Below, piece by piece: positions 3,731 to 58,506 of a stretch of 64,000 nt of DNA. The stretch covers positions 1 to 64,000 of the forward strand of contig NZ_JAUSSH010000006.1 in the NCBI RefSeq assembly GCF_030812255.1. The letters run 5' to 3'. The stretch is from Paeniglutamicibacter psychrophenolicus (GTDB lineage Bacteria; Actinomycetota; Actinomycetes; Actinomycetales; Micrococcaceae). Each line of letters starts with the position of its first letter. Position 1 is the stretch's first letter. Under the pieces are notes generated by a model, which did no database searches, was not told where the DNA came from, and was given only the letters and a program-made list of their open reading frames with translations. The position numbers were made by a program, and so were the translations under genes.

Positions 3731-3790
3731 GATTCTTCCTAATCGTTAGTCCTGCGCCGTCGCAGGGAAGGAACCGACGTGTGAAGACGG

Positions 3791-4513
3791 TTATGTCGTC
3801 TTGGAGATGCGATGCAGCCATTCGAGGAACATCTTCATTTCGGTGTTGGAAAGTTGCTGCGGGTTCGAGGACTCCAACGCGGCGTTCAGCGCGATGGCGG
3901 CCACGACGACCGAGGAGGCACCCACCGGGGTGGCGGAGTCGGCAATGCCGGCCTCCGAGGACACCGCGGTGATCACGGCATCGCGCGTCATGTCGGACAG
4001 CTCGAAGTTCCGCTCCTTCTCCGGCTCGGAGATGAGCATCAGGGTGACCCCGATGTTCGCCGCCATGATGCTGCGCACCGCGTCGGCCGGGGGCACGTTC
4101 AGGTGCCCGGCTTCTGCGGCCCGGTCGAGCTTCCCGCGCAGCAGCGCTTCCGCCTCCGAGACCCTGTTGGATCGGTTTCCGGGCCTGACCTTGCCGAACA
4201 TCACCAGGTAGAGGTGCGGTTTCTCGATGCCGAAGCGCACGTGTTGGTCCCACATGCGCCGCACGTCGTCCAGCGGCTTCCCGGTGGGCTCAAGGTCCAT
4301 TTCACTGGCCACGTACTGCTCGAAACCCACGGCAACGACCGCGTCGAACAGGCCTTCCTTGTCCCCGAAGTGGTGGTACAGCGTCGGCGCCGTGACCCCC
4401 GCCAGCTCGGTGATCTTCCGGGTGGAGACCGGAGCCCCGTCCGAATTGGCCAAGAGCTCGACGGCTGCCTGCAGCAGTCGCTCCCTCGGCGGAAGCTGGA
4501 TGTCTAGACTCAT
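3791..4513 (-). CDS. TetR-family regulator of the mannitol/PTS block
   Basis: A 240-residue protein with an N-terminal TetR helix-turn-helix at about residues 28-58 (motif TLYHHFGDKEGLF) and a variable ligand domain. It sits between mtlA-mtlD (same strand, downstream) and ptsI-ptsH (divergent). A 15-bp palindrome lies 19 nt before its start codon. Context suggests it controls itself and neighbouring PTS genes; the inducer is unknown. Actinobacterial and firmicute mannitol operons more often use other regulator families, so the TetR choice is of interest. The role is inferred. Confidence 0.85.
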   Translation of the reverse strand: MSLDIQLPPRERLLQAAVELLANSDGAPVSTRKITELAGVTAPTLYHHFGDKEGLFDAVVAVGFEQYVASEMDLEPTGKPLDDVRRMWDQHVRFGIEKPHLYLVMFGKVRPGNRSNRVSEAEALLRGKLDRAAEAGHLNVPPADAVRSIMAANIGVTLMLISEPEKERNFELSDMTRDAVITAVSSEAGIADSATPVGASSVVVAAIALNAALESSNPQQLSNTEMKMFLEWLHRISKTT

Positions 4514-4649: not shown

Positions 4650-6335
4650 GTGCAAAACTTCTCCGGAGTGGGCGTCATGCCCGGACGCGTCATCGGAACC
4701 ATCCGGCACATGCCCCCGGCGCTTTCCGAACCGCCGGCCGGCGAGAAGCTCGATGCATCGGTCACCGCGGAGCAGGCCATCGCCAGACTCAAGGAGGCCG
4801 CGGCGTCCGTGCAGGCGGACCTGCGCACCCGCGCCGCCACCGCCAGCCCCGAGGCCAAGGCCGTGCTGGAGGCCACCGCGCAGATGGCCACCGACTCGAT
4901 GCTGCTCAAGGGTGCCAACAAGCTGATCAACACCGGCCTTTCGGCCGAACGCGGGATCTGGGAGTCCGGCGAAACCGTCGCCCAGATGCTCATCACCCTC
5001 GGCGGCTACATGGCCGAACGCGCCACCGACGTGCTGGACGTGCGCGCCCGCATCGTGGCCGCGCTGCGCGGGGTCCCGGCCCCCGGCATCCCCGATTCGA
5101 CGGACCCGTTCATCCTGGTGGCCGAGGACCTGGCACCGGCGGACACCGCCACGCTGGACCCGGCCAAGGTCATCGCGCTGCTGACCACCGGCGGCGGGCC
5201 CCAGTCGCACACCGCCATCATCGCCCGCGCCATGGGCCTGACCGCCATCGTCGCCGCCAAGGGCCTGGAGGCACTGGAATCCGGCACCGAGATCTTCGTC
5301 GACGGAGCCGCCGGAACCATTTCCACTTCCCCCGGCGACACCGAGCGCACGGCCGTGGACGCCTGGCTGAAGAACGCCGCGCTGCTCTCGGTCTTCGACG
5401 GCAACGGCGTGATGGCCGATGGGCACCTGGTCCCGCTGCTTGCCAATGTCGGCGGCGGCAAGGACGCGGTGAAGGCCGCTGCGGCCGGAGCCCAGGGCGT
5501 GGGGCTGCTGCGCACCGAATTCTGTTTCCTGGGTCGCGACACCGAGCCGTCCATCGAGGAGCAGGTCGCCGAGTACAAGGCCGTCTTCGACGCCTTCGGG
5601 TCCAAGAAGGTCGTGGTGCGCACGCTGGATGCCGGCGCCGACAAGCCGTTGCCCTTCCTCACCGACGCCTCGGAGCCCAACCCGGCCCTGGGCGTGCGCG
5701 GCTACCGCACCGACACCACCTCCCCCGGGGTGCTGGCCCGCCAGCTCTCCGCCATCGCCACCGCATCGGCCGGCTCCGAGGCCGAGGTCTGGGTCATGGC
5801 CCCGATGATTTCCACTCCGTCCGAGGCCGCCGACTTCGCCGCGATGTGCGCCGACGCCGGACTGGCCACCCCCGGGGTGATGGTCGAGGTCCCCTCCGCG
5901 GCACTGGGCTCCGAGGCCATCCTGGGCCAGGTGTCCTTCGCGTCCCTGGGCACCAACGACCTGACGCAGTACACCATGGCCGCGGACCGGCAGCTCGGCC
6001 CGCTGGCCGCGTTGAACAACCCGTGGCAGCCTGCGGTGCTGCGCCTGATCGAATTGACGGTTGCCGGCTCCCGGGCCGAGGGCAACCACAAGCCCGTGGG
6101 CGTCTGCGGCGAGGCCGCGGCGGATCCGGCGCTGGCCGTGGTGCTGGTGGGTTTGGGCGTCTCGACCCTGTCGATGTCCGCCCGCTCGCTGGCCTCCGTG
6201 GCCGCGGTGCTCAAGACCGTCACGCTGGAACGCGCCGGCGAATTGGCGCAGCTGGCCCTGGCCGCACCGAGCGCCGAGACAGCACGCACCGCGGTGCGCG
6301 AGGCGCTGCCGGCACTGGCCGAACTGGGCCTGTAG
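4650..6335 (+). CDS. ptsI: PTS enzyme I (phosphoenolpyruvate-protein phosphotransferase)
   Basis: Transfers phosphate from phosphoenolpyruvate to HPr in the cytoplasm. The 561-residue length is typical. The phospho-acceptor His187 is in the GGPQSHTAI motif. The C-terminal PEP barrel shows LDAGADKPLP (326-335), GTNDLTQYTMAADR (434-447) and catalytic Cys486 in GVCGEA. GTG is the start, preceded by a purine-rich GAACGAGGA. ptsH follows 79 nt downstream in the same direction, then a rho-independent terminator. Confidence 0.96.
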   Translation: MQNFSGVGVMPGRVIGTIRHMPPALSEPPAGEKLDASVTAEQAIARLKEAAASVQADLRTRAATASPEAKAVLEATAQMATDSMLLKGANKLINTGLSAERGIWESGETVAQMLITLGGYMAERATDVLDVRARIVAALRGVPAPGIPDSTDPFILVAEDLAPADTATLDPAKVIALLTTGGGPQSHTAIIARAMGLTAIVAAKGLEALESGTEIFVDGAAGTISTSPGDTERTAVDAWLKNAALLSVFDGNGVMADGHLVPLLANVGGGKDAVKAAAAGAQGVGLLRTEFCFLGRDTEPSIEEQVAEYKAVFDAFGSKKVVVRTLDAGADKPLPFLTDASEPNPALGVRGYRTDTTSPGVLARQLSAIATASAGSEAEVWVMAPMISTPSEAADFAAMCADAGLATPGVMVEVPSAALGSEAILGQVSFASLGTNDLTQYTMAADRQLGPLAALNNPWQPAVLRLIELTVAGSRAEGNHKPVGVCGEAAADPALAVVLVGLGVSTLSMSARSLASVAAVLKTVTLERAGELAQLALAAPSAETARTAVREALPALAELGL

Positions 6336-56547: not shown

Positions 56548-57735
56548 ATGAATGACGATCTGACTCCCGTGGTCATTGGCGGGGCGCGCACGCCCTTTGG
56601 CAGGTTCCGCGGGGCCATCTCCTCGGTGCCGGCCACAGACCTCGGCGCCCACGCCATCAAGGCGGCCCTGGAACGCAGCGGGGTGAAGGCCAGCGACATC
56701 AACCACGTCATCATGGGCCAGGTGATCCTGGCCGGCACCGGGCAGGGTCCGGCCCGACAGGCCTCCCTGAAGGCCGGGATCGGCTGGGACGTGCCCACGG
56801 TTACCATCAACAAGCTCTGCCTCTCCGGGCTGACCGCGGTCATCGACGCCGCCCGGATGATCCGGGCCGGGGAAGCAGAGTTCATCGTCGCCGCCGGCCA
56901 GGAGTCCATGTCCAACGCACCCCACTTGGTCCGCGGCATGCGCGCGGGACTGGCGATCGGGGACCGCGGCCTGGAGGACTCGCTGAACCACGATGCCCTG
57001 GCCGACCCGCTCACCGGTGAGCTCATGGGATCGACCACCGAACGCGGCAACGCCAAGCTGGGGATCGGCAGGGCGGAGCAGGACGCGTACGCCGCGGCCT
57101 CGCACCAGCGCGCGGCCGCTGCCCGGGCACACCTTGATGCGGAGATCGCACCCATCTCCATCCCCCAGCGCCGCGGGGAGGATCTGGTTGTCTCCACCGA
57201 TGAGGGCATCCGCCCCGGGACCACGGTGGAGAAACTGGCCGCGCTGGGACCGGCATTCTCCAAGGAGCCGGGGGCAACCATCACCGCGGGTTCTTCCTCG
57301 CCGCTTTCCGACGGCGCCGCCGCGTTGGTCGTGGCCTCCAAGGGCGCGGCCCGCAAGGCGGGGCTGTCGTGGCTGTGCGAGATCGGGGCGCACGGACAAA
57401 CCGCGGGTCCGGACGGGCAGCTGCATTCCCAGCCCAGCACCTCGATCCTCGCGGCCTTGGAGAAGGAGGGGCTGAATGCCGGGGACCTTGACGCGATCGA
57501 GATCAACGAGGCCTTCGCCTCGGTGGTGCTGCAATCGGCCAAGGACCTCGGCGTGGATCCGGCCAGGGTCAACACCGAGGGCGGGGCCATCGCCCTGGGC
57601 CACCCGGTGGGTGCCTCCGGGGCGCGACTGGTGTTGCACATGGCGATGGAGCTGTCGCGGCGCGGCGGCGGCACCGGGGTCGTCTCGCTGTGCGGCGGTG
57701 GCGGCCAGGGCGATGCGCTGGTCCTCCGGACCTGA
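56548..57735 (+). CDS. acetyl-CoA acetyltransferase (thiolase)
   Basis: A 395-residue thiolase. Nucleophilic Cys91 lies in NKLCLSG, with the EINEAFAS motif, His in GGAIALGHPVGASG and the second catalytic Cys382 in CGGGGQGDA. It joins or splits acetoacetyl-CoA, in beta-oxidation, ketone metabolism or mevalonate supply. AAGGA lies 7 nt upstream of the ATG. It stands alone on this strand before the non-coding RNA element 1. Confidence 0.94.
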   Translation: MNDDLTPVVIGGARTPFGRFRGAISSVPATDLGAHAIKAALERSGVKASDINHVIMGQVILAGTGQGPARQASLKAGIGWDVPTVTINKLCLSGLTAVIDAARMIRAGEAEFIVAAGQESMSNAPHLVRGMRAGLAIGDRGLEDSLNHDALADPLTGELMGSTTERGNAKLGIGRAEQDAYAAASHQRAAAARAHLDAEIAPISIPQRRGEDLVVSTDEGIRPGTTVEKLAALGPAFSKEPGATITAGSSSPLSDGAAALVVASKGAARKAGLSWLCEIGAHGQTAGPDGQLHSQPSTSILAALEKEGLNAGDLDAIEINEAFASVVLQSAKDLGVDPARVNTEGGAIALGHPVGASGARLVLHMAMELSRRGGGTGVVSLCGGGGQGDALVLRT

Positions 57736-57786
57736 ATTCACACGTGGTTTCCGGGCCCTGTACAGCCAGTGCATAGATTGGGTTCC

Positions 57787-57792
57787 TAGAGT
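57787..57792 (+). promoter_or_regulatory. -10 box of RNA element 1
   Basis: TAGAGT lies 8 nt upstream of the conserved CCTCATG start of the element, the same relation as TAGGCT to element 2. A shared AGCCA / AGCCCA block lies 17-18 nt upstream in both. Confidence 0.45.
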
Positions 57793-57797
57793 AGTAA

Positions 57798-57886
57798 CTA
57801 CCTCATGAAGGTGCGAGTGATGAGAGCACCGGTCGGATACAAGGCAGATTCCCCCCAGCCTGCCGACCGGTGCTCAACCATTTAAG
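57798..57886 (+). ncRNA. structured RNA element 1 (pair with 58239-58325)
   Basis: A non-coding segment homologous to element 2. A near-identical 5' part (CTACCT-N5-AAGGTGCGAGTGAT) leads to a perfect 13-bp stem, 57824-57836 with 57863-57875 (GAGCACCGGTCGG / CCGACCGGTGCTC), then TTTAAG. Between the copies the lower stem changes on both sides (GAGCACC/GGTGCTC versus GAAGAACC/GGTTCTTC), so pairing is kept: covariation that supports an RNA structure. Could be a small RNA about 85 nt long or an attenuator; no known family was recognised. Confidence 0.65.
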
Positions 57887-58024
57887 CCCGGCCGTGCCCT
57901 GCGCGGGCGACGGGACGAGGCATGGGGCATCCGCTCGACAACGTCGGAACTTCGGACCAAACTGAAGATACCGGTCGCGCCGGTGAATCGGGCGACATGA
58001 TCTACGGACCAAGGAGCACGCGTG

Positions 58025-58177
58025 ATGAGTGAAAAACCAATCGGCGACGAAGAAGACGTCACGGCAGAAGAAGCTGCCGCAGAGCCGGAACATGTTGCCA
58101 GCGCCCACGACGAGGCGCTGGTCGAGGAATGGGAAGACGAGTCCTTCCCCGCCTCCGATCCCCCATCGAATTACTGA
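58025..58177 (+). CDS. acidic 50-residue protein with SFPASDPPS motif
   Basis: A small gene between the two RNA elements. AAGGAG lies 8 nt before the ATG, and GTG three bases upstream is an alternative start. The protein is strongly acidic (about 16 Asp/Glu in 50) and ends with EEWEDESFPASDPPSNY. The ESFPASDPPS tail is a conserved motif of many short uncharacterised bacterial proteins (recalled from family patterns). No membrane segment or Cys. Function unknown. Confidence 0.8.
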   Translation: MSEKPIGDEEDVTAEEAAAEPEHVASAHDEALVEEWEDESFPASDPPSNY

Positions 58178-58228
58178 CTCTCGGCTGACTGACAACCAAT
58201 CCTCAGCCCACACTCAGCTTCGACTCTT

Positions 58229-58234
58229 AGGCTG
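58229..58234 (+). promoter_or_regulatory. -10 box of RNA element 2
   Basis: TAGGCT, 7 nt before the conserved CCTTCTC start of the second element, matches the spacing seen for element 1. Confidence 0.45.
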
Positions 58235-58238
58235 AAGC

Positions 58239-58325
58239 TACCTTCTCAAGGTGCGAGTGATCAGAAGAACCGGTCGCGGCGGAGTTTCACCTCCTTAGCC
58301 GTCACGACCGGTTCTTCACTTTAAG
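58239..58325 (+). ncRNA. structured RNA element 2 (pair with 57798-57886)
   Basis: The second copy of the element. The 5' part shares CTACCT and AAGGTGCGAGTGAT with element 1, and ACCTT/AAGGT can form a small 5' hairpin. The main stem 58265-58277 with 58306-58318 (GAAGAACCGGTCG / CGACCGGTTCTTC) encloses an inner hairpin of CGG and CTCC bases, followed by ACTTTAAG. It ends about 180 nt before the aldo/keto reductase gene, so it could be a separate small RNA or part of that gene's leader. Confidence 0.65.
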
Positions 58326-58506
58326 AACGCAGGTACCGAAGTGGGGCCTCCCCGGGTCACAAAGCAGCGGATTTCGTTTCTCCCCAGCGTGCCGCGCCCG
58401 CCGTCATGGACTATCGGCGCCTCGGGGGACAAGAATGGATGCGAATGAAGCCCAGAAAGCTTCATGAGATTTTCCGTCCCACCAACTTCAGGAGAACACC
58501 ACCACC

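Follow-up and report, generated by a model that had tools for sequence, protein, structure and literature searches.

Two homologous elements flanking a microprotein gene

The window, i.e., the whole stretch of 64,000 nucleotides of Paeniglutamicibacter psychrophenolicus DNA that was analysed, carries two homologous structured elements on its forward strand, and the original prediction of such a pair was confirmed, with CTACCT, AAGGTGCGAGTGAT, a main stem of 13 bp and a terminal TTTAAG common to both. Copy 1 (subtype A) occupies 57798–57886 (+), precisely as predicted, and was delineated by its fold, model matches and covariation. It comprises a 5' hairpin (57799–57803/57809–57813, from the fold), a linker, GCGAGUGAU (57813–57823), and a main stem supported by fold and covariation (57824–57836/57863–57875), with the C-rich loop TCCCCCC at 57850–57856. 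Copy 2 (subtype B), delineated on the same grounds, spans 58238–58325 (+) and starts one base before the predicted 58239; its 5' hairpin lies at 58239–58243/58249–58253 (fold), its main stem at 58264–58276/58305–58317 (fold and covariation), and its apical-loop segment TCACCTCCTT (58287–58296, +) equals the 3' tail of 16S rRNA.

Both elements fold far better than expected from their composition, with −36.8 kcal/mol for copy 1 (z −5.1) and −38.5 kcal/mol for copy 2 (z −5.4), and none of 200 dinucleotide shuffles was as good in either case. Allowing up to two mismatches, the 14-mer AAGGTGCGAGTGAT has two sites in the window, both within the elements, where 0.26 were expected, and 2 of 100 shuffles likewise gave two matches. 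A tRNA search of the window found none. The genome as a whole holds four copies: the two in the window and two more on another contig, approximately 1.45 kb apart.

Between the two copies we confirmed the predicted microprotein gene, an ORF of 50 aa at 58025–58177 (+) ending in DESFPASDPPSNY. The encoded protein is acidic, gave no Pfam (E ≤ 0.1) or NCBIfam match, and was found as a single match in every one of the 15 genus genomes searched, this one included. The gene order thiolase, subtype A, microprotein, subtype B, aldo/keto reductase, aldehyde dehydrogenase is kept at 13 of the 15 genus loci; the exceptions are G013, where a gap of about 5.5 kb separates subtype A from the microprotein gene, and G012, where the microprotein escaped the tblastn search and the fetched stretch showed no dehydrogenase gene. 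Over all copies pooled, a CCUCC[UG]U loop occurs at 30 loci, of which 28 (all but L058 and L143) sit 3' of a microprotein ending FP[AG]SDPP[SA]NY, the stop codon of which lies 63–222 nt upstream (63–75 nt in 25 of the 28). The microprotein also occurs where no subtype B neighbour is known, with matches in 24 of 79 genomes, one of them of another family; thus the link is one-sided. Three microprotein matches lie on contigs C11 and C19 of G095, a genome of another family of the order, and the protein is therefore older than the RNA family or more widely distributed.

A second acidic small ORF, of 57 aa and starting METSDDANKEP, was observed in L005 (3782–3955, +), convergent with a copy of the element and beside a trypsin-like gene. 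Similar ORFs occupy the same place in L042, L048, L049, L053, and L061, and no Pfam or NCBIfam match was obtained for this type of ORF.

Architecture and distribution of the putative RNA family

The copies share the 5' module ACCU-N5-AGGUGYGAGUGAU, and from 5' to 3' each consists of a short hairpin (UACCU...AGGUG), a single-stranded GYGAGUGAU linker, a long covarying hairpin and often UUUAA, which ends 110 of 229 pooled copies; there is no clear U-tract at the end of the element. Element length in the genus is mostly 84–96 nt. Near-identical strains are represented in the pool of 229 copies, a few entries of which, at CCCT starts, are duplicated, and since the pattern used to collect the pool required the module core, core conservation is not measurable on it; the model-based searches offer a partial check, the model having itself been built from core-bearing copies. 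With that caveat, all 86 copies found by the model have an identical GYGAGUGAU. The 3' hairpin drifts among copies, and its apical loop is usually C-rich.

The original prediction had argued from two copies that the stem arms changed together. The double change, C-G to A-U, is real, and the argument was right but thin, as significance was reached only with 86 copies: with the four copies of this genome alone, 117 of 500 shuffles did as well. In the 86-copy alignment (82 distinct sequences), which was fitted to the model built from those four copies, all 13 pairs of the main stem show double changes and 97.6% of cells are paired. None of 500 shuffles reached this, and versions slid by 1–3 columns paired in 28–48%. 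RNAalifold on the same alignment gave 15 pairs, 10 of them with double changes. A covariance-model search of the kind originally proposed yielded homologues with compensatory changes. The five pairs of the 5' hairpin are kept in nearly all of the 229 pooled copies, and no double changes were seen there, either in the 86-copy alignment or in the pool. Pairing of the module with rRNA was considered and rejected, because a 7-kb stretch of an rRNA operon is paired equally well or better by 81 of 100 shuffled modules.

Among the genomes searched, the family is restricted to Micrococcaceae, where its carriers are soil bacteria related to Arthrobacter. Model R1 (E ≤ 0.1) matched 61 of 119 genomes, the window's own included, among them all 14 same-genus relatives with 4–7 matches each, counts that include weak matches and antisense hits on the palindromic hairpin. 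At E ≤ 1e-5, model R2 matched 85 of 197 family genomes in 20 of 32 genera, with four matches in the genome of the window, an underestimate because the 3' hairpins are divergent. In samples drawn evenly from larger groups, the exact module pattern occurred in 8 of 297 genomes from the order and 2 of 394 from the class, all of them Micrococcaceae (8 of 24 and 2 of 6 family genomes), and in none of the 273 and 388 non-family genomes of these two partly overlapping sets. A scan of named genomes returned at least 117 stretches with the element, and the titles among the matches listed (80 loci) include Paeniglutamicibacter, Arthrobacter, Glutamicibacter, Nesterenkonia, Zhihengliuella, Micrococcus, Kocuria, Citricoccus, and Auritidibacter. 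The sole title from outside Micrococcaceae among those listed is an Acidobacteria metagenome-assembled genome (MAG) contig (L105, element at 4931–5056, +), which was probably mis-binned. A pattern for the complement of the module retains two downstream Gs and mostly recovers the genes of the family themselves, so that it is usable as a copy count only. The twins of the original prediction are indeed two homologous putative sRNAs, but are better described as two subtypes of a multicopy set found across the family.

Some arrangements depart from this plan. In an Arthrobacter-type variant (L113, L126, L137, L164, L170, and similar loci) an extra hairpin stands between the module and the hairpin with the C-rich loop; these copies have at times a second C-rich stretch and are badly covered by the models used. 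An 8-kb Micrococcaceae MAG stretch (L153) carries several module copies within about 4 kb, and a terminator-like hairpin comes after every one of them.

Promoter-like region, apical loops and proposed mode of action

Upstream of copy 1, at 57762–57778 (+), lie ACAGCC (57762–57767) and ATAGAT (57773–57778), 11 bp apart and a candidate response-regulator site, followed by the −10-like box TAGAGT (57787–57792, +). Upstream of copy 2, at 58202–58218 (+), CTCAGC is directly repeated exactly 11 bp apart (58202–58207 and 58213–58218) and is followed by TAGGCT (58228–58233, +); both −10-like boxes were assigned from the conservation of TANNNT. These two boxes had been predicted and are present, but the accompanying distance of 7–8 nt does not hold, as they end 5 and 4 nt before CTACCT; the −10 distance fits if transcription starts 2–3 nt further in. 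Likewise, the AGCCA block reported further upstream exists, but as part of the direct repeats spaced 11 bp.

The same layout recurs throughout the family. In 150 non-redundant upstream regions the composition profile recurs with shifts of 11 bp (z 7.7) and of 22 bp (z 5.6), which none of 2000 column permutations matched at either distance, and a box resembling TTC[A/C]CAGG recurs at about −63, −52, −41, and −29 from the conserved CCT. TANNNT lies at its expected place, give or take 1 nt, in 223 of 229 copies (165 exactly), compared to 16 of 229 after shuffling. With the boxes in fixed register, CA was present at none of the four positions in 51 of 229 copies vs. 3402 of 4580 shuffled sequences; the box array is common, not universal. 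An 11-bp spacing with no separate −35 box suits an activator of the OmpR/PhoB type, and 11-bp direct repeats ending shortly before the −10 box are what we found. Since PhoP-type boxes look like MtrA sites, we leave the regulator unnamed. In the accessible parts of published work, MtrA sites of other actinobacteria are direct repeats of similar GTCACAgcg-like half-sites, with which TTC[A/C]CAGG boxes at 11-bp intervals are compatible. From the layout of these sites, the family is probably controlled by a two-component sensor system.

The subtypes differ in their apical loops. Subtype A, as in copy 1, has a C-run, usually of 4–6, and in subtype B, as in copy 2, the loop contains UCACCUCCUU, equal to the anti-Shine-Dalgarno tail of 16S rRNA. 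The end of 16S rRNA was found in four of the five genus genomes searched and read in G014, and the identity is for the window's strain only inferred because its own draft assembly gave no match to the 16S end. CCUCCUU or CCUCCGU occurs in 30 pooled copies, some of them from near-identical strains, and the stem closing the B loop varies (CGGC/GCCG, GCGG/CCGC, AGGC/GCCU) while the loop is kept. In the minimum-energy fold of the subtype B copies of the genus, CUCC pairs with GGAG inside the loop. The 155 non-redundant tails comprise 94 with a C-run in the loop, 9 with CCUCC and 52 with neither; in the control, 89 of 465 mononucleotide-shuffled tails, which preserve base composition only, passed the same test. 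By eye, the 52 include at least four B-type tails with the loop hidden by the fold and three with shorter C-runs, and the rest, approximately 45, are plain terminator-like hairpins, hence loop pairing is not universal.

Comparison supports the claim that the elements are sRNAs of about 85–90 nt with their own promoters: there are homologues, stem covariation, a −10-like box, a box array and no kept reading frame. Our preferred reading, to which we give a probability of roughly 0.58, is that copies 1 and 2 are paralogous genes of trans-acting sRNAs under two-component control that would block translation initiation. An OmpR/PhoB-type response regulator, MtrA- or PhoP-like, would bind the 11-bp repeats and activate transcription, and the 3' hairpin would also terminate the transcript. 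The apical loop, i.e., the C-run in subtype A and UCACCUCCUU in subtype B, is predicted to pair with G-rich or AAGGAGG Shine-Dalgarno sequences and so to block ribosome entry, and the 5' module may act as a shared handle that confers stability or is recognised by an RNA-binding protein. We favor loop pairing because C-rich loops recur in most tails, the B loop is identical to 16S rRNA and B11 and LhrC offer precedents, and a handle because the module survives beside plain terminator-like 3' hairpins and Hfq was not found (0 of 29 genomes; 5 of 14 controls positive). The original prediction had the CCU-rich 5' end and AAGGUG pairing either with a ribosome-binding site or with each other. The self-pairing holds, as CUACCU and AAGGUG form the 5' hairpin, but the likely element against ribosome-binding sites is the apical loop of the long hairpin instead.

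A search of five genomes for sites complementary to the B loop (up to one mismatch) gave 15, five of them in genes of the family itself, vs. 17 for the reversed pattern, i.e., no excess. In L225 and L227, near position 1500, the Shine-Dalgarno sequence TAAGGAGGTGGAATG of a 142-aa ORF, presumably Fur-like, complements the B loop with one G-U pair. This was seen in two of the five genomes and is no more than the target search gives by chance, and the ORF is not claimed as a target.

The strongest alternative places the functional heart in the 5' module, which would serve as a sponge or for loading onto one RNA-binding protein, with the 3' hairpin mainly a terminator. The identity of GYGAGUGAU in the 86 copies (found by a model built from such copies), the persistence of the module where only a plain terminator-like hairpin follows, and the several copies per genome all agree with it, and the accessible part of PMC3091779 suggests protein binding by the conserved nonamer of the csRNAs. 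However, most tails and genera have C-rich loops, and the B loop is conserved although its stem drifts, neither of which a pure sponge needs, and we regard this alternative as possible but doubtful.

The remaining explanations appear far less probable. In the window, each copy is followed on its own strand by a gene, the microprotein gene after copy 1 and an aldo/keto reductase gene after copy 2, with a hairpin near the start of a possible leader, so each might be a cis-acting leader or attenuator. This is unlikely, as the gene downstream varies among the copies of the family and at some of them the neighbouring gene is convergent instead, e.g., in L005 (copy at 3961–4050, −, against the ORF at 3782–3955, +) and again in L042, L048, L049, L053, and L061. 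A REP- or MITE-like DNA repeat that folds owing to its palindromy would account for elements that are palindromic, multi-copy and intergenic, and for model matches to the antisense hairpin, but is slightly less probable still given the fixed promoter-like region, the conserved asymmetric 5' module, the few copies per genome and the retention of subtype B at the same locus across the genus and in other genera. Least credible of all is a small protein-coding gene that would start at an ATG within the 5' loop. Copy 1 is indeed spanned by an ORF of 26 aa with an ATG start, but copy 2 lacks the ATG, other copies have different letters in its place (CTTG, TCTC, CATC, and others), and hairpin lengths place the TAA of TTTAA in all three frames (42, 41, and 27 of 110 copies); therefore no reading frame is kept and the element is not coding.

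Significance and relation to known systems

Regulation by sRNAs without Hfq is poorly understood in actinobacteria. Each genome with this family provides several compact, homologous putative RNAs that share a nearly invariant module and have a promoter region that can be recognised, and the binding protein, the sensor and the mRNA targets are therefore directly testable. As a tentative wider picture, Micrococcaceae might possess a riboregulatory regulon in which a response regulator drives sRNAs sharing a 22-nt handle for a putative RNA chaperone, with no detectable Hfq, and in which subtype B displays an anti-Shine-Dalgarno tail on a stem and acts with the upstream microprotein, as an actinobacterial counterpart of the CIN1 locus. 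Subtype B, whose loop is identical to the anti-Shine-Dalgarno tail of 16S rRNA and which neighbours the same microprotein gene in several genera, would provide a clear example of an RNA that mimics the site by which the ribosome recognises mRNA.

The multicopy family has apparently not been described before: no earlier description was found in the literature searched, which covered few subscription papers. As originally proposed, it also belongs to no described RNA family in Rfam, as none matched in the window at gathering score, and on 17 further loci SAM-IV, SRP, and TPP RNAs were found, none of them at the elements. At E ≤ 10, the element region (57600–58500) gave five matches, none of which came near its cut-off. 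The best sub-threshold actinobacterial match, the Scr3202 RNA of Streptomyces (RF02833), shares a long hairpin and a C-rich loop with the family but was rejected (20.7 bits against a cut-off of 52, E 2.2).

In the accessible part of PMC3091779, the streptococcal csRNAs of the CiaRH regulon resemble the family in their multiple similar genes per genome, an 11-bp direct repeat, an architecture of two stem-loops with a conserved short sequence just after the first and a very diverse remainder, and anti-Shine-Dalgarno sequences, in bacteria without Hfq; their genes are under the response regulator CiaR. They differ in carrying the anti-Shine-Dalgarno sequence between the stem-loops, as far as that source describes them, whereas the Micrococcaceae family, which is actinobacterial, has it in the apical loop. 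Neither the CiaR repeat TTTAAG-N5-TTTAAG upstream nor the csRNA nonamer [A/C]UCCUAAA[A/C] was found in any of the 229 pooled copies. The Rfam library holds LhrC, and there was no LhrC match at the elements, in the window or at the 17 further loci. Listeria LhrC1–5 are, in the part of PMC4132741 available, likewise multicopy with C-rich UCCC motifs that bind ribosome-binding sites, and depend on the two-component system LisRK, but they have another sequence and architecture and bind Hfq.

The C-rich apical loops of the 6C type are also present here (94 of 155 tails with a C-run, 9 of 155 with CCUCC), usually as one loop, not two. RF01066 gave no match in the window at gathering score or in 57600–58500 at E ≤ 10, and matched none of 19 family genomes and 2 of 29 overall, a weakly controlled result as 1 of 14 control genomes matched and none over the cut-off. 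6C is single-copy, whereas this family is multicopy, and it is conjecture that the family takes the place of 6C in Micrococcaceae. According to the accessible part of PMC10470900, 6C/B11 RNAs (RF01066) are, like the family, actinobacterial with C-rich loops acting on 5' UTRs, and repression by B11 of a target whose 5' UTR contains a G-tract depends on these loops.

At the CIN1 locus of alphaproteobacteria, as far as covered by the part of PMC10253847 available, CcsR/cuckoo RNAs with an anti-Shine-Dalgarno-like motif lie directly downstream of a small-protein gene, as subtype B does, and that locus has a DUF1127 RNA-binding protein, co-transcription and RNase E processing. Unlike CIN1, subtype B has its own promoter-like region, and the microprotein directly upstream of it is acidic and gave no Pfam match at E ≤ 0.1, DUF1127 included. 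The CcsR/cuckoo motif is CCUCCUCCC. In conclusion, the family is by membership tests a member of none of the csRNAs, LhrC or B11/6C, and its mode of action, judged by analogy, would be like that of all three.
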